A stretch of DNA of 64,000 nucleotides, taken from contig JABFQV010000002.1 of assembly GCA_013141495.1 (NCBI GenBank), positions 62,001 through 126,000 on the forward strand, read 5' to 3'. Below are positions 23,287 through 28,555 of the stretch, piece after piece; position 1 is the stretch's first letter, and every line of letters starts with the position of its first letter. Position numbers and translations under genes: made by a program. The notes under the pieces were generated by a model. It was not told the origin of the DNA. It saw only the letters and a list, made by a program, of their open reading frames with translations, and ran no database searches. The stretch comes from Methylotenera sp. (GTDB lineage Bacteria; Pseudomonadota; Gammaproteobacteria; Burkholderiales; Methylophilaceae).

Positions 23287-23574
23287 ATGCAAATTGTTTG
23301 GCTAAAAACAGCGCTACGTAATCTAGATGAAATCGCAACTTACATTGCGCAAGATAACCCAGCAGCGGCAAGCCAAGTGGTAAAAACCATTTATACGCAA
23401 GTAAACCTATTGTCGCAACAACCTGCATTGGGGCGCTCTGGTCGCGTGTTAGGTACGCGCGAGTTGGTGATTAGCAATACGCCGTATTTAGTACCATACC
23501 GCATTAAATATAATACGGTTGAAATTTTGCGTGTGTTTCATACTTCACGTAAACCCCCTACAAACTGGGTATAA
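23287..23574 (+). CDS. ParE/RelE superfamily toxin
   Basis: The 95-residue protein has the ParE fold signature: IVWLKTALRNLDEIATYIAQDNPAAA at the start, then GRSGRVLGTRELVISNTPYLVPYRI and VEILRVFHTSRKPP at the end. ParE toxins poison gyrase, RelE toxins cut mRNA; the lack of clear RelE catalytic residues and the overall pattern favour ParE, but this is inference. Its stop is 16 bp before the methyltransferase start, so the TA and modification genes may share a transcript. Confidence 0.9.
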   Translation: MQIVWLKTALRNLDEIATYIAQDNPAAASQVVKTIYTQVNLLSQQPALGRSGRVLGTRELVISNTPYLVPYRIKYNTVEILRVFHTSRKPPTNWV

Positions 23575-23590: not shown

Positions 23591-26470
23591 ATGTCGCTCC
23601 ATGCCGCATTACAAACCGCCAGAAGTGAAGAAGACGTTAAAGACGCCTACATCAAAGCATTAGGCTTAAAAGCCTACACTAAAGGCTTAATTGATATTCA
23701 AACAGCTGAAATTTGGTTTGAGGCAAAAGACACCAGCAAAGTATCAACCTATGCTATGTTTACGCAGTTATTGCACTATGTTCAAGTAGCGCTTAACAAG
23801 GGTGAAATTATTCCTGCGTTTTTAGCGGTGATTGATACTGAAAAAGCCGCGTTGATGAAAAGCAGCGACGTATTGCCGTTTTTAGCCAAAAAAACCATCA
23901 CATGGGGCAAATCTGCCAGCCAATATACGCAAGAAGCACTGGCAGAAATCTCTACGCATATCGGTACGCATTTTGTTTCGTTTAGAATTGCCACGCACGA
24001 AGAAGAATTTATCAGTACGGTAAAAGCCGCGATTAAATCAGGCGACATTATCCGTACGCAAATTACGCCAGACAACCTAAAACAAGTGTTTGATAAATGG
24101 GTGGCGATGATAGGCCGCGAGATTAACGGCGTGGATGAAGATGATTACGCCTTACTGTTTTTTGCCGACATTATGCACGATGGCAAAGTCTCTACCCACG
24201 CCAACTTACCAGCCGAGTTACTGCACAAAAACGATGCCCCCGTGTTTAGCTTAGGCGGAAAAATGTACGAGCTAGGCAATAAAGAAGGCTACCGCCAGTT
24301 TTGGGCGATTTATCACAAACCACCCAAAGCTGAATACCGCAACTATTTATTAGAGCGTCGCGATAGCCTGATTCCGCTCGATGAACGCAGCTTTAAAGGC
24401 GCGTATTACACGCCGCTGGCCGTGGTAGATAAGGCTTACGACAAGCTGACTGAAACCTTGGGCGAAAACTGGCAAAAGAATTACATTGTGTGGGATATGT
24501 GCTGTGGCGTGGGCAATTTAGAAGTAAAACACAGCAACCCGCGCAACATCTACATGAGCACGCTGGACGAGGCTGACGTGGATGTGATGAAAGCGACTAA
24601 AACCTGTGTATCGGCACAACGCTTTCAGTATGACTATTTGAATGACGATATTACCGATGACGGTAAAATTGATTACAGCCTGACTAATAAAGTGCCGGAA
24701 GGCTTAAGGCAAGCCATTGCCGAGGGTAAGAAAATATTGGTGTTAATTAACCCGCCTTATGCGGAGGCGGCAAATACGCTCGGCAATGAAGGTAAAACAG
24801 ATGTAGCCACTACGCGTGTTGCAAGTAGCATGGTGGATTATGGCTATGCTTCACGCGAATTATTCACTCAATTTGTGGCGCGTATTGCACAAGAAATACC
24901 AACGGCTACGTTAGCCATGTTTAGCACACTAAAATATGTGAATGCGCCGAACTTTGAAAAATTTAGGCAATCTTGGAATGCTAAGTATTTAGGTGGCTTT
25001 GTCGTGCATAGCAAAGCTTTTGAGGGGCTAAAAGGGGACTTTCCCATTGGCTTTTTAGTGTGGCAAACAGCCAATATTCCCCTTCAAAATGAAGGGGTGG
25101 CGCGAAGCGACGGGGTAGTTACAACACCCAATAAAACCACAAACACCAAAAGTAAATTAGGTGACTTGCCCTACAACGCTACATTAAAAGAAAAAGCGCG
25201 TGAGCTAAGAAAAGCGGGTAATTTAAGTGAAGTGCTATTTTGGAATGCTGTCAAAAACAAACAATTAAATAACTTGGATTTTGACAGGCAGCGCATCATA
25301 GGCAATTACATTGTTGATTTTTACTGCCATGAGTATGCTTTAGTTGTTGAGATTGACGGTGATTCACATGATAACAAGCAAGCGTATGACGAAGCTAGAA
25401 ATCATTATCTGCAAGGGCTTGGGCTTCAAGTATTGCATGTGCAAGATATTGAAGTGAAAAAGAATTTAGCGGGTGTGATTGATTTGGTGCGGCAGCATAT
25501 CGCTAAGCCAGTTGATGGCGTTTTAGCTACCCCGCCCGTTGGGCACCCCTTCAAAATGAAGGGGAATAAAACCATGACGCATACGCCTATTGATGAAATT
25601 ACCACTGAGGTGTTAGACAAAAAATCACAAGCGATAGGTGAGAAGCGTTTTTACAATTTACCCAATAAGCAATTACTGACTAATTGGATTGGTCGTCAAA
25701 AACCCAACGAGCATGATGTTTTGCCGTTAATCAATGCCGTAACGCCAACAACAAAAACTAAAGGTGTACGCCGCACAACGTGGTCTGATGGTGCAATTGG
25801 ACACATGTTGTCTGATAGTAATGATTTACAAAATGCAATTCAAACAGGCTTGTTTTCTTCGGTTCATAGCATTGGACATAAAGGTGGATTCTTCGTTACC
25901 CATGAAAACCTTTGGCAAGCTTCTGTAATTTTTGCAGTGCGCCGCCTTATCAAACCCACATGGCTTAACGACCGCGACCAATTCCTACAACCCACCGAAA
26001 CACTTACAGACGAATTCAAAACCGATTGCTTAATGTGGATGCTATTTAACGGTAGCAACCTCACCGCCAGCGCCAACGAGCTAGAATGGAACGGCAAACA
26101 ATGGAGCATCGTTAATCACTTTATTCCGTTTACCGAGGCTGAAGTAGGCGCGCCTGAACGTTTTGAATCTGACTTTATGGTGCAATATTTAAGCGATAAA
26201 ACACTGTCTGCAGAGGCAAGCGCAGTGCGGCTTGCAGGGCAGGTGTTATGGCAGGCTTACTTTGCCCACACCGACGTGCGCAGCGTGCGCGATGAACTTA
26301 AACTCAACCGCGCAGACGTTGGCTGGTACCAAATTCGCAATGCCTTAAAAGCGCGTAACGCCAGCGGTGACTTTGTGCCAGTTACCTTTAGCGCGTTTGA
26401 AGCCGCTTATAAAACATTGGGCGATAAATTACGCCCGCAGGTGTATGAACTGGGGTTTTTGAAAGGTTAA
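23591..26470 (+). CDS. N6-adenine DNA methyltransferase/putative type IIG restriction enzyme, with in-frame DUF559 insertion
   Basis: The 959-residue protein is a large adenine methyltransferase: GAYYTP (270-274), SAM loop DMCCGVGN (302-309) and catalytic NPPY (387-390). Near the N-terminus D35 and E44-A-K46 could form a PD-(D/E)XK nuclease site, suggesting a single-chain restriction-modification enzyme; this is tentative. Residues 497-658 are an insertion holding a complete DUF559 nuclease domain (see the mobile element entry). The methyltransferase sequence reads directly from WQTANI across it into NKTMTHTPIDEI. Start: the frame is open from 23519, but that overlaps the toxin, and the ATG at 23591 begins MSLHAALQTARSEED. 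TA genes flank both sides. Confidence 0.85.
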   Translation: MSLHAALQTARSEEDVKDAYIKALGLKAYTKGLIDIQTAEIWFEAKDTSKVSTYAMFTQLLHYVQVALNKGEIIPAFLAVIDTEKAALMKSSDVLPFLAKKTITWGKSASQYTQEALAEISTHIGTHFVSFRIATHEEEFISTVKAAIKSGDIIRTQITPDNLKQVFDKWVAMIGREINGVDEDDYALLFFADIMHDGKVSTHANLPAELLHKNDAPVFSLGGKMYELGNKEGYRQFWAIYHKPPKAEYRNYLLERRDSLIPLDERSFKGAYYTPLAVVDKAYDKLTETLGENWQKNYIVWDMCCGVGNLEVKHSNPRNIYMSTLDEADVDVMKATKTCVSAQRFQYDYLNDDITDDGKIDYSLTNKVPEGLRQAIAEGKKILVLINPPYAEAANTLGNEGKTDVATTRVASSMVDYGYASRELFTQFVARIAQEIPTATLAMFSTLKYVNAPNFEKFRQSWNAKYLGGFVVHSKAFEGLKGDFPIGFLVWQTANIPLQNEGVARSDGVVTTPNKTTNTKSKLGDLPYNATLKEKARELRKAGNLSEVLFWNAVKNKQLNNLDFDRQRIIGNYIVDFYCHEYALVVEIDGDSHDNKQAYDEARNHYLQGLGLQVLHVQDIEVKKNLAGVIDLVRQHIAKPVDGVLATPPVGHPFKMKGNKTMTHTPIDEITTEVLDKKSQAIGEKRFYNLPNKQLLTNWIGRQKPNEHDVLPLINAVTPTTKTKGVRRTTWSDGAIGHMLSDSNDLQNAIQTGLFSSVHSIGHKGGFFVTHENLWQASVIFAVRRLIKPTWLNDRDQFLQPTETLTDEFKTDCLMWMLFNGSNLTASANELEWNGKQWSIVNHFIPFTEAEVGAPERFESDFMVQYLSDKTLSAEASAVRLAGQVLWQAYFAHTDVRSVRDELKLNRADVGWYQIRNALKARNASGDFVPVTFSAFEAAYKTLGDKLRPQVYELGFLKG
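25079..25564 (+). mobile_element. DUF559 nuclease-domain cassette with palindromic ends, inserted in frame
   Basis: The 486-bp block begins and ends with the same 19-bp palindrome (CCCCTTCAAAATGAAGGGG, 25079-25097 and 25546-25564). Inside these, the ends continue as imperfect inverted repeats ending GGGGTAG (left) and CTACCCC (right), about 40 bp each. It starts at a codon boundary and is exactly 162 codons. The core (residues 527-638 of the fusion) is DUF559: LPYNATLKEKARELR, Glu547 in LSEVLFW, Asp576 in IVDFYC, then VVEIDGDSH with Glu587, Asp589 and His593, so the Vsr-like site looks intact. No in-frame ATG precedes the domain, so it is made only as a fusion. No target duplication is obvious. 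Confidence 0.85.
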
Positions 26471-26560: not shown

Positions 26561-26755
26561 ATGATGCAATTACAAATTTCTGAAAAACGCGAAGTAGCCG
26601 AATTGTTGGCGCAGTTGCCAGAAGATAGCACTTTGGAAGATATTCAATATCATTTATATATTTTAGAAAAAGTAAAACATGGTCAGGCAGATATTGCAAT
26701 GGGTAGAACCTACACGCAAGCCGAAGTTGGGGCGAAATTGCAAAAATGGCTTTAA
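26561..26755 (+). CDS. Antitoxin of the second ParE-type module
   Basis: The 64-residue protein (MMQLQISEKREVAELLAQLPEDSTLEDIQYHLYILEKVKHGQADIAMGR then TYTQAEVGAKL) matches a common class of short antitoxins paired with ParE/RelE toxins, recognisable by the LPxDSTxEDIxYHLYxxxK core and the late xAEVxxKLxxWL end. The frame opens at a TTG (26543); the ATG at 26561 follows AAGGGG and is preferred. Its end overlaps the toxin start by 10 nt. The 90 bp before it contain no recognised gene. Confidence 0.82.
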   Translation: MMQLQISEKREVAELLAQLPEDSTLEDIQYHLYILEKVKHGQADIAMGRTYTQAEVGAKLQKWL

Positions 26756-27036
26756 TTGTTGTTTGGTCGCAAACCGCATTAGATGATGTGGATGCAATTG
26801 CTGCTTATATTTTTAAAGATTCGCCTTTTTACGCAAAGGCTGTCACTGAAAAGTTGTTAAAAGTCGCTGAAGGTGTTGCAGCGTTTCCCCAAATAGGACG
26901 AACTGTACCTGAACTTAATCAAGCGCATATTCGTGAGCGGTTTGTTTATAGCTATCGCCTGATATATGAAATTAAGCCAACACAAATTGAAATTTTAACC
27001 GTAGTGCATGGTAGAAGATTATTAGAAACTGTTTGA
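26746..27036 (+). CDS. ParE-like toxin of the second module
   Basis: The 96-residue protein (IVVWSQTALDDVDAIAAYIFKDSPFYAKAV, then FPQIGRTVPEL, RERFVYSYRLIYEI and ILTVVHGRRLL) follows the ParE/RelE pattern very closely, including the conserved GRxVPE and terminal HGRR. It overlaps its antitoxin and is followed after 1 nt by an L,D-transpeptidase gene. It is distinct in sequence from the toxin at 23.3 kb, so the two modules are not a recent duplication. Confidence 0.9.
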   Translation: MALIVVWSQTALDDVDAIAAYIFKDSPFYAKAVTEKLLKVAEGVAAFPQIGRTVPELNQAHIRERFVYSYRLIYEIKPTQIEILTVVHGRRLLETV

Positions 27037-27037
27037 T

Positions 27038-27517
27038 ATGCACATTGAAATCTCTATCTCCCACCAAACCCTGACGCTATTCGATAACTTTGGCAGCGTG
27101 AAAGCTCAATACAGCATTTCAACTGCTGCTAACGGCATAGGCTGTGAGAAAAACAGCGGTTGTACGCCACTGGGTGAACATATTATTCGAGCCAAGATTG
27201 GTGCAAATACACCTGTGAATGCTGTGTTTGTTGGGCGCCGCGCTACGGGTGAAATTTGTACGCCAGCGCTGATGGCTGAGTTTCCGAATCGCGATTGGAT
27301 TTTGACGCGTATTTTGTGGCTTTCTGGCACCGAGGTAGGCAAAAACCGCTTGGGTAATGTAGATACCATGCAGCGTTATATTTACATACACGGCACGCCG
27401 GATGATGTTGCGTTGGGGCAGGCAGCCTCACATGGGTGTATTCGTATGCGTAATGCAGATGTGATGGCGTTGTTTGATTTGGTGGATGTTGGGACGCCTG
27501 TGGTGATAGTGGAATGA
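27038..27517 (+). CDS. L,D-transpeptidase (YkuD domain) without signal peptide
   Basis: The 159-residue protein consists only of a YkuD catalytic domain: YIYIHGTPDDVALGQAASHGCIRM holds the His and nucleophilic Cys motif. Such enzymes form 3-3 peptidoglycan crosslinks or attach lipoproteins. No signal peptide or membrane segment is visible (MHIEISISHQTLTLFD at the start), which is common in a betaproteobacterial subgroup but leaves localisation open. It begins 1 nt after the ParE-like toxin and precedes the permease genes. Confidence 0.85.
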   Translation: MHIEISISHQTLTLFDNFGSVKAQYSISTAANGIGCEKNSGCTPLGEHIIRAKIGANTPVNAVFVGRRATGEICTPALMAEFPNRDWILTRILWLSGTEVGKNRLGNVDTMQRYIYIHGTPDDVALGQAASHGCIRMRNADVMALFDLVDVGTPVVIVE

Positions 27518-27534
27518 TGTGCCAATCTAAGTCC

Positions 27535-27608
27535 GTCATTCTGAACGAAGTGAAGAATCCAGTCTTTTGTGACCAAAGTGCTAGATCCTTCGCTATGCTC
27601 AGGATGAC
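27535..27608. repeat. Imperfect inverted repeat, GTCATTCTGA family
   Basis: Arms 27535-27561 (GTCATTCTGAACGAAGTGAA...) and 27582-27608 (ending GCTCAGGATGAC) are inverted copies with several mismatches. It belongs to the same family as the perfect copy at 34084-34156. It lies between the L,D-transpeptidase and the permease gene. Confidence 0.8.
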
Positions 27609-27640
27609 AGTTAAGTATTTGATGGTGAGTTTGGGTGTTT

Positions 27641-28555
27641 ATGTTTTTAATTAAAAAACTCTCAAACCTAGCTACCGTCATTTTTGGCGTGTTATTACTT
27701 ACATTTCTACTGATACATTTGGTGCCAGGTGACCCGGTAGAGGTTATGTTGGGTGAATCTGCCAGTAGCGCTGACCGTGCAGCATTGCGTGCAGATTTGG
27801 GCTTGAACCAACCGCTGGTCCAGCAGTTTGGCAGTTATTTAAGCAAGCTGGCACATGGCGATTTCGGTCAGTCTATTCACACTAAAACGCCGATTATTGA
27901 CCTGCTAAAAACGCGTTATCCTGCGACAGTAAAACTCGCGTTGTTATCTTTAATGATCGGGTTGGTTGTTGGCGTGCCGTTAGGCATTTATGCCGCGCTT
28001 AAAGCAAACCAATGGCAAGATTTTATCGTAACCATTGTTTCAGTGCGATTATCTGCCATGCCCGCATTTTGGCTCGGCCCCATGCTCATGTTGATTTTTG
28101 CTGTTTGGCTGGGTTGGTTGCCTGTGAGCGGTATGGATTCCAGCACATCAATTATTTTACCTGCCGTTACATTAGGGTTTGGTTTGAGCGCGATTCTTAC
28201 GCGCATGACGCGCACCAGTCTGTTGGAGGTGCTCAATGACGACTATATTCGCACCGCGCGTGCCAAAGGTTTAAGCGAAAAAACCGTGATTTTACGTCAT
28301 GCCTTGCGCGCGGCATTATTGCCGATTATTACCATTGTCGGTTTGCAGATGGGTAGTTTGCTGGCAGGTACGGTGATTACTGAAACGATATTTAGTTGGG
28401 ATGGCATCGGGCGGTTATTGGTGGAGAGTATAGAAAAGCGTGATTACCCTGTAACGCAGGCTTGCGTGCTGGTGGTGGCGCTGAGCTATGTGGTGGTGAA
28501 TTTATGCACAGATATTTTATATCGGTTGGCAGATCCAAGAGTGCGCAGTGTTTAG
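27641..28555 (+). CDS. ABC transporter permease, DppB/OppB family
   Basis: A polytopic inner-membrane permease of about 304 residues with the family start (LATVIFGVLLLTFLLIHLVPGDP), the ADLGLNQPLVQQFGSYLSKLAHGDFGQS periplasmic block and the ATPase-coupling loop RTARAKGLSEKTVILRHALRAALLPI. Either GTG at 27635 or ATG at 27641 may start it. It pairs with the following DppC-type gene and probably with the binding lipoprotein at 21.5 kb. No ATPase gene is present in the window. Confidence 0.92.
   Translation: MFLIKKLSNLATVIFGVLLLTFLLIHLVPGDPVEVMLGESASSADRAALRADLGLNQPLVQQFGSYLSKLAHGDFGQSIHTKTPIIDLLKTRYPATVKLALLSLMIGLVVGVPLGIYAALKANQWQDFIVTIVSVRLSAMPAFWLGPMLMLIFAVWLGWLPVSGMDSSTSIILPAVTLGFGLSAILTRMTRTSLLEVLNDDYIRTARAKGLSEKTVILRHALRAALLPIITIVGLQMGSLLAGTVITETIFSWDGIGRLLVESIEKRDYPVTQACVLVVALSYVVVNLCTDILYRLADPRVRSV

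Follow-up and report, generated by a model that had tools for sequence, protein, structure and literature searches.

How did a nuclease domain come to lie in frame inside a DNA methyltransferase gene of Methylotenera sp. (assembly GCA_013141495.1, contig JABFQV010000002.1, positions 62,001 to 126,000)? These 64,000 nucleotides are called the window here, and positions are counted from its first letter. The first-pass annotation had taken the inserted DUF559 segment for a mobile nuclease-plus-repeat element. Our analysis suggests that the cassette is probably one copy of a palindromic mobile element that encodes the DUF559 nuclease and is bounded by paired inverted half-elements of the triplex motif (TM) type, earlier named PIT. 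The features of the locus are as follows.

23591..26470, plus strand: host DNA methyltransferase frame with the cassette; weak type II methyltransferase match, NPPY motif by eye.
25076..25567, plus strand: inserted cassette ATTCCCC...GGGGAAT; 492 bp or 164 codons, missing in homologues L083-L086.
25076..25120, plus strand: left half-element H; palindrome A'-loop-A, spacer hairpin GCGCGAAGCGAC, then GGGGTAGTT (A2).
25079..25097, plus strand: left-end 19-bp palindrome.
25184..25501, plus strand: DUF559 nuclease domain (PF04480); profile match, PD-(D/E)XK/Vsr-like by literature.
25523..25567, minus strand: right half-element H', the inverted copy; palindrome, spacer hairpin GCCCAACGGGC, GGGGTAGCT facing inward.
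25546..25564, plus strand: right-end 19-bp palindrome, its loop AAA oriented as in the left copy.

The host frame encodes 959 aa, and its N-terminal part matched MTase_II of PADLOC at E 2e-6; a Pfam search of the two host halves gave no family for either. The host protein was matched in 10 of 199 relatives searched. The uninterrupted homologues that had been asked after do exist: four long ones (L083, L084, L085 and L086) lack the segment and are 73–80% identical to the host over the best stretches. Their insertion site is a 7-residue loop between WQT, WKT or WET and the next aligned block. Deletion of 25076-25567 from the window frame left exactly seven residues, the spacing of the homologues, and for this reason the cassette is placed at 25076-25567 (492 bp). 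The in-frame position first described was thus retained, while its extent of 25079-25564 (486 bp) was corrected. AAT is present at both junctions, so that a 3-bp target duplication around a 489-bp element fits as well as a 492-bp insert, and such a duplication is indistinguishable from a longer inverted repeat. In the C-terminal third of L085 and L086, other repeat-like peptides (...VIASNAKQSS... and ...PVISAKAEIQ...MDSRVRGNDG...) were seen in frame at one common, different site.

The DUF559 domain was readily confirmed (E 1e-27, 101.4 bits against a curated cut-off of 20.6) and was the sole Pfam match in the frame. No other DUF559 was found by profile search of the window's assembly. As annotated, no splicing domain was present: no intein or Hint family was among the Pfam matches in the frame or the host halves. 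Residues E23, D52, E63, D65, H69 and D76 were invariant in an alignment of 18 DUF559 sequences. The only solved relative at E up to 1, and so the nearest structure by sequence, was 3HRL (E 2.5e-14), named Endonuclease-Like Protein in the PDB; it differs from the cassette domain in being a stand-alone chain of 104 residues, and the PDB record seen gives no function. The relation of YcjD to Vsr, and DUF559 proteins as Vsr-like PD-(D/E)XK nucleases, are described in the available part of PMC1189080, and the Vsr-like nature also in that of PMC12907096. The ratio of nonsynonymous to synonymous substitutions (dN/dS) between the window cassette and its five closest relatives was 0.06-0.11 for four and not computable for the fifth (L007); the values are rough because dS was 1.3-2.1, with synonymous sites near saturation. 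The low ratios indicate purifying selection, by which the nuclease is kept as a protein.

The identical 19-bp palindromes reported at the ends were recovered at 25079-25097 and 25546-25564, and the roughly 40-bp imperfect inverted repeats proved to be half-elements of 45 nt, both of which fold into a pair of hairpins (DNA −10.8 and −11.4 kcal/mol, z −3.7 and −2.75). The palindrome is CCCCTTCA-AAA-TGAAGGGG, followed by a hairpin spacer and a second G-run, GGGGTAG, that faces the nuclease. The ends have the TM/PIT layout of pyrimidine arm, loop, purine arm, spacer and second purine arm. At up to 3 mismatches, the palindrome had no further match in the 64-kb window (0.01 matches expected). Perfect matches to CCCCTTCAWWWTGAAGGGG in the assembly were only the two ends; at 3 mismatches there were three more places, and a backward control pattern also gave one. 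An Rfam search gave one match only, far below the gathering score. Searching the window and seven loci with the half-element pattern gave 27 copies; L152 had none. Among the 22 copies with the commonest spacer type, one stem position was never broken: 15 had A-T there and 7 had G-C, and one additional copy outside these 22 had G-T at this covarying position; other spacer types differed in sequence and retained the hairpin. The structure of the ends is kept rather than the sequence, with half-element copies that are not independent of one another. The exact 19-bp palindrome was rejected as the signature of the element because end sequence varies by locus while the layout is kept. The proposed recurrence of the ends held for their layout, which flanks DUF559 genes lying in other genes of the genus and across Pseudomonadota, and by eye also those of further phyla; the exact 19-bp end occurred only at this locus within the window's genome.

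A protein scan of genome contigs for the cassette DUF559 gave 18 relatives. The five closest (75–80% aa), from Methylotenera or a proteobacterium, lie in the gene of a type ISP restriction-modification enzyme, identified by PF18135 on the clean copy L143. Two copies of this gene are free of the cassette: L145, and L143, whose genome also has an interrupted copy. In each of the five genes the host frame stayed open through the cassette and on its 3' side, and nuclease-free half-elements were found in frame at two further sites of the type ISP gene. The window-type half-element pattern was present in 8 of 52 genus genomes. Of its 28 matches, 24 fell within the type ISP gene of five genomes and 1 within the window gene; the remaining 3 came from two other genomes, in which a search for the type ISP gene did not find it. 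One type ISP gene (L150, G125:C25:107000-111300) carried a different palindromic repeat, CGTCATTCCCGC...GCGGGAAT, in frame at two of the three half-element sites; it resembles the CGTC-tagged repeats that the available part of PMC3733652 describes as a type without known transposase.

An intergenic site of the genus, next to a gene that is MoeB-like by eye, was readable in 41 of 52 genomes. Seven of them (G003, G019, G027, G011, G007, G043 and G016) held H-DUF559 or its remains by eye. With the window's own genome (G000), where the contig ends inside a half-element, the number was 8 of 41; the rest had a simple hairpin or unrelated sequence. A stand-alone DUF559 in L025 (G030) adjoins the same MoeB-like gene end by eye, and comparison of G025 with G043 was compatible with a TGTA target duplication. 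The half-element at the contig end of G000 (G000:C20:115696-115726; L107, L349) is a second, different one, and relatives hold a stand-alone DUF559 there; a second DUF559 copy may have been lost in the assembly gap at C20.

Related DUF559 cassettes also lie in unrelated genes. The valyl-tRNA synthetase gene (valS) of a Mariniphaga genome (L312) encodes residues 3-208 that match PDB 1gax 1-206 and residues 353-562 that match 208-419, with DUF559 between. QueA (L311) is split in frame into parts matching 1yy3 10-266 and 282-345, and an asparagine synthase-like gene (L309) into parts matching 7ylz 1-90 and 94-213. HsdM (L313) is split in frame as well, HsdR is split at two different points in L315 and L016 (Aphanizomenon), and an Eco57I-type methyltransferase in Ignavibacteria (L013) has a cassette too. 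L312 and L310 (radical SAM, YgiQ-like by eye) were cut by contig ends. DNA-level ends were present on both sides in L309, L311, L312, L313 and L315, and on the left side only within the stretches examined in L016 and L013; the arrangement in L311 was that of the window. Within this small set, restriction-modification genes were frequent hosts. The GC-rich long frames around DUF559 in L314, L316 and L317 looked spurious and were excluded as hosts.

An even sample of 299 Pseudomonadota genomes was searched. PF04480 matched in 112 genomes, and the match was strong (E below 1e-20) in 83. One locus per genome was taken from these 83, omitting G000, G080, G308, G330, G344, G378 and G384, which left 76 loci. 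A first rule for half-elements was too loose, being positive on both sides in 44 of 272 control spans, and was replaced by a pyrimidine-arm rule applied within 400 bp of the gene, with 414 control spans from 47 of the same loci. Inward half-elements were found on both sides at 24, on one side at 28 and on neither side at 24 of the 76 loci, and in the control spans at 0, 1 and 413, respectively. Vsr loci (PF03852) from these genomes, 30 in all, served as a nuclease control and showed no half-element in either orientation. A motif-free score of inverted repeats between the flanks exceeded the control 99th percentile at 50 and the control maximum at 48 of the 76 loci; none of the 30 Vsr loci was above the threshold. 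One locus of each set, L236 for DUF559 and L345 for Vsr, had a short right flank.

The ends were also specific to their locus. In 34 both-ended loci (24 of the 76 and 10 of 20 additional places), likeness of ends was 0.80 within the same locus versus 0.47 between different loci (0 of 20,000 permutations), and the own partner was the best or tied end in 20. Genome G221 has five further DUF559 copies, 35–64% alike; its four both-ended loci compared had three end types, one of which L293 and L295 (64% alike) have in common. Short- and long-spacer half-element classes both flanked DUF559 in Pseudomonadota, and the layout in other phyla was recognised by eye for those loci where it was found. Most of the DUF559 loci looked at were stand-alone genes, so that spread in coding frames, as first proposed, describes cassettes in several genes and a minority habit. 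One stand-alone DUF559 query matched 4 of 50,697 phage records and 53 of 72,556 plasmid records, and the low numbers fit a chromosomal, REP-like life (REP, repetitive extragenic palindromic). A Legionella evolution study counts among its recombination hotspots, in the part of PMC12308824 available, a segment present three times that carries a transposase and a DUF559 protein; this segment may be relevant to DUF559 and rearrangement.

The same layout is that of the G/C-rich intrastrand triplex motif of Holder et al. 2015 (TM, TMECO; PMC4666352), a type of repeat widespread in bacteria. According to the accessible part of that paper, the consensus is CCCTCNCCC-N3-6-GGGNGAGGG-N3-GGGNGAGGG, the E. 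coli motif forms a triplex in vitro, and the authors found neither a mobility gene nor remnants of transposases or integrases in the vicinity of the E. coli TMs. In E. coli K-12, 167 bp separate TM no. 9 (1351204-1351239) from ycjD (1351407-1351760). The gene is annotated as coding for a DUF559 protein, and YcjD matches PF04480 at E 1e-49 with 167 bits. A degenerate second TM overlaps the 3' end of ycjD in K-12, and strain KE47 has a fuller motif at that end. The gene was found in 3365 of 5426 complete E. coli genomes. A PF04480 search of 14 named control genomes gave 2 positives, E. coli not among them; the control E. coli strain may be one without ycjD.

Across the 299 genomes, one exact TM class was present in 63 and its backward control pattern in 0. 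TM class and strong DUF559 occurred together in 49 genomes, TM only in 14, DUF559 only in 34 and neither in 202. Strong DUF559 was thus found in 49 of 63 TM-positive genomes versus 34 of 236 others (odds ratio 21, Fisher p 2e-21, relatedness not corrected), and in 16 of 19 genomes with at least 20 TM copies. TM copies were far more numerous than DUF559 genes in many genomes. The inverted TM pair between hrpB and mrcB of E. coli (L252 and L253 versus L249) is full in K-12, collapsed to one palindrome in one strain and missing in another. The collapsed form looks like a deletion scar, and the case fits deletion better than target duplication, so that a solo palindrome is only a possible insertion target. 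The two palindromes of the window could collapse in the same manner, and the loss of 467 bp would break the frame. A clean empty fabI-sapF site was not obtained in E. coli; the two strains looked at without adjoining ycjD have efflux genes by fabI or sapF.

The reading of the cassette as a mobile nuclease-plus-repeat element is supported because homologues without the segment exist and ends of the same layout occur elsewhere. The nuclease-repeat unit is well supported; its anatomy, its insertion relative to homologues, its specific matched ends and its distribution are clear, and the association of DUF559 with TM repeats is established. We infer its movement because sites occur both with and without it and because related cassettes lie in genes that are themselves unrelated. 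In the mechanism that we propose, the ends would become single-stranded at the replication fork or in repair and fold into hairpins or a triplex, which the Vsr-like DUF559 nuclease would recognise and nick, or it would nick a matching palindrome. PD-(D/E)XK nucleases cut strands but are not known to join them, and host repair or recombination is therefore proposed to complete the spread by copying the element, or its two ends alone, to a new place. End-only copies would be the TM pairs scattered through genomes, and copies landing in a loop of a protein gene with the frame kept would survive as translated passengers. TM repeats would then be the ends and nuclease-free derivatives of the DUF559 element, working in a REP-like way with an unrelated enzyme.

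Several observations weigh against this interpretation. Neither transposition nor end cleavage nor the protein was observed, and no fixed length emerged for a target duplication. About a third of the sampled DUF559 loci are without recognisable ends: the rule gave no half-element at 24 of 76, and at 26 of 76 the inverted-repeat score did not reach the 99th percentile of the controls. Orientation varies between loci. Outward half-elements were found on both sides at 5, on one side at 29 and on neither side at 42 of the 76 loci; among the cassettes, the second arm is outward on both sides in ValS (L312) and HsdR (L315), and L309, L313 and L016 have copies both ways. The DUF559 paralogues in the four genomes compared were diverged (35–64%), with no fresh copies. 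In K-12, a full TM stands on just one side of ycjD, and the 14 TM-positive genomes without strong DUF559 include the TM-rich G435 (81 TM), G251 (47) and G366 (26). The host frame was broken elsewhere, into two frames, in 2 of the 5 cassette-bearing type ISP genes (L147 and L148).

The strongest alternative, still an unlikely one, is a strict homing endonuclease: DUF559 would cut the uninterrupted host site and the cassette would be copied via the host flanks, the palindromic ends being accessory. In its favour, the same MoeB-like-adjacent site holds DUF559 or a half-element in 8 of 41 genomes and the same type ISP site a cassette in five, and the EDxHD homing family has been taken to include a DUF559 gene (available part of PMC9403480). 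However, ends rather than host sites are shared, each locus having its own matched pair, the in-frame hosts are unrelated genes, and TM copies greatly exceed DUF559 genes in many genomes.

Slightly less credible is a resident, domesticated repair nuclease, similar to that of very short patch (VSP) repair, beside whose gene TM palindromes gather or are processed. Caulobacter VsrA, a DUF559 protein, is reported to be Vsr-like and to cause the SOS response in methyltransferase-lacking cells (PMC12907096, part available), and the low dN/dS and the few phage and plasmid matches agree with such a role. It leaves unexplained the in-frame cassettes with such ends in ValS, QueA, HsdM and HsdR, and the presence and absence at orthologous sites. 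Movement in trans by an unrelated transposase, a REP-associated tyrosine transposase (RAYT) or an IS (insertion sequence) enzyme, with DUF559 as passenger or regulator, is improbable. Such an enzyme would provide the strand joining that PD-(D/E)XK nucleases are not known to perform, and would account for the 14 of 63 TM-positive genomes missing strong DUF559. Against it, the DUF559-specific, locus-matched ends would have no explanation, and the part of PMC4666352 available mentions no remnants of a transposase or integrase close to the TMs of E. coli. Chance palindromes or an assembly artefact can be dismissed: short reads do collapse repeats, and contig C20 of G000 ends inside another half-element, but 0.01 matches were expected in the window, the backward control gave 0 in 299 genomes, and such ends are present in complete E. 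coli genomes and single-contig genomes.

A gene specifically paired with TM repeats is present in 83 of 299 Pseudomonadota genomes (E below 1e-20) and in E. coli K-12, and it makes the origin of TM testable in a laboratory strain. That an enzyme and a repeat recur together in many bacteria points to an overlooked kind of mobile DNA, and with the cassettes in ValS, QueA, HsdM and HsdR there would be a further natural way for protein genes to acquire entire domains. We see about equal grounds for and against a broader view, in which DUF559 with inverted TMs would form pan-bacterial selfish elements apart from IS, REP-RAYT systems and homing introns or inteins, the Vsr-like nuclease acting on folded ends; their nuclease-free offspring would be the TM/PIT repeats that E. 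coli, cyanobacteria and others carry, ycjD would be a resident or decaying copy, and the element could be a translated passenger in essential enzymes such as valyl-tRNA synthetase. No paper linking DUF559 to TM or palindromic ends was found by title or opening abstract in the open-access literature, a search with subscription journals and preprints outside its scope.

Around the host gene, short frames at 23287-23574 and 26746-27036, one on either side, have the look of ParE/RelE-type toxins by eye. On the minus strand, 27382-27681 encodes a repeat-like peptide, CHPEHSEGSS...HFVQNDG, which resembles a widespread repeat.

I-Bth0305I is an example of the EDxHD (Vsr-like) homing endonucleases. 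Like these, the cassette has a Vsr-like nuclease inside a host gene; unlike them, it is without intron or intein, appears to stay in the protein and has palindromic ends. No known transposase family of IS or miniature inverted-repeat transposable elements (MITE) was among the Pfam matches of the frame and host halves. Rickettsia palindromic elements (RPE), compared by description only, are likewise in-frame palindromic repeats within unrelated protein genes, but they are about 150 bp with a conserved peptide, and no nuclease gene is named in the part of PMC10969869 available. TM/PIT repeats share with the cassette ends the half-element layout, the many copies and the inverted pairs, with K-12 copy no. 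9 beside ycjD. The E. coli motif is described in the part of PMC4666352 at hand as always intergenic and with no mobility gene, whereas the motif here is paired with a nuclease gene and also lies within coding frames; the window ends, with their long hairpin spacer, fall outside the published E. coli consensus. A resemblance in working, as distinct from membership, would be to REP-RAYT systems (REPtrons, REPINs), in which a nuclease gene lies between inverted palindromes, many nuclease-free inverted pairs exist and in-frame copies are known; REP families also occur within genes, and the CGTC type is without known transposase (PMC3733652, available part). The enzyme here differs, being DUF559 (PD-(D/E)XK by literature) and not an HUH tyrosine transposase, for which Pfam gave no match in the frame, and the cassette is without a GTAG-tagged palindrome unit. 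Should the DUF559 nuclease prove to move its ends, then unrelated enzymes have set palindromic repeats in motion on at least two occasions.

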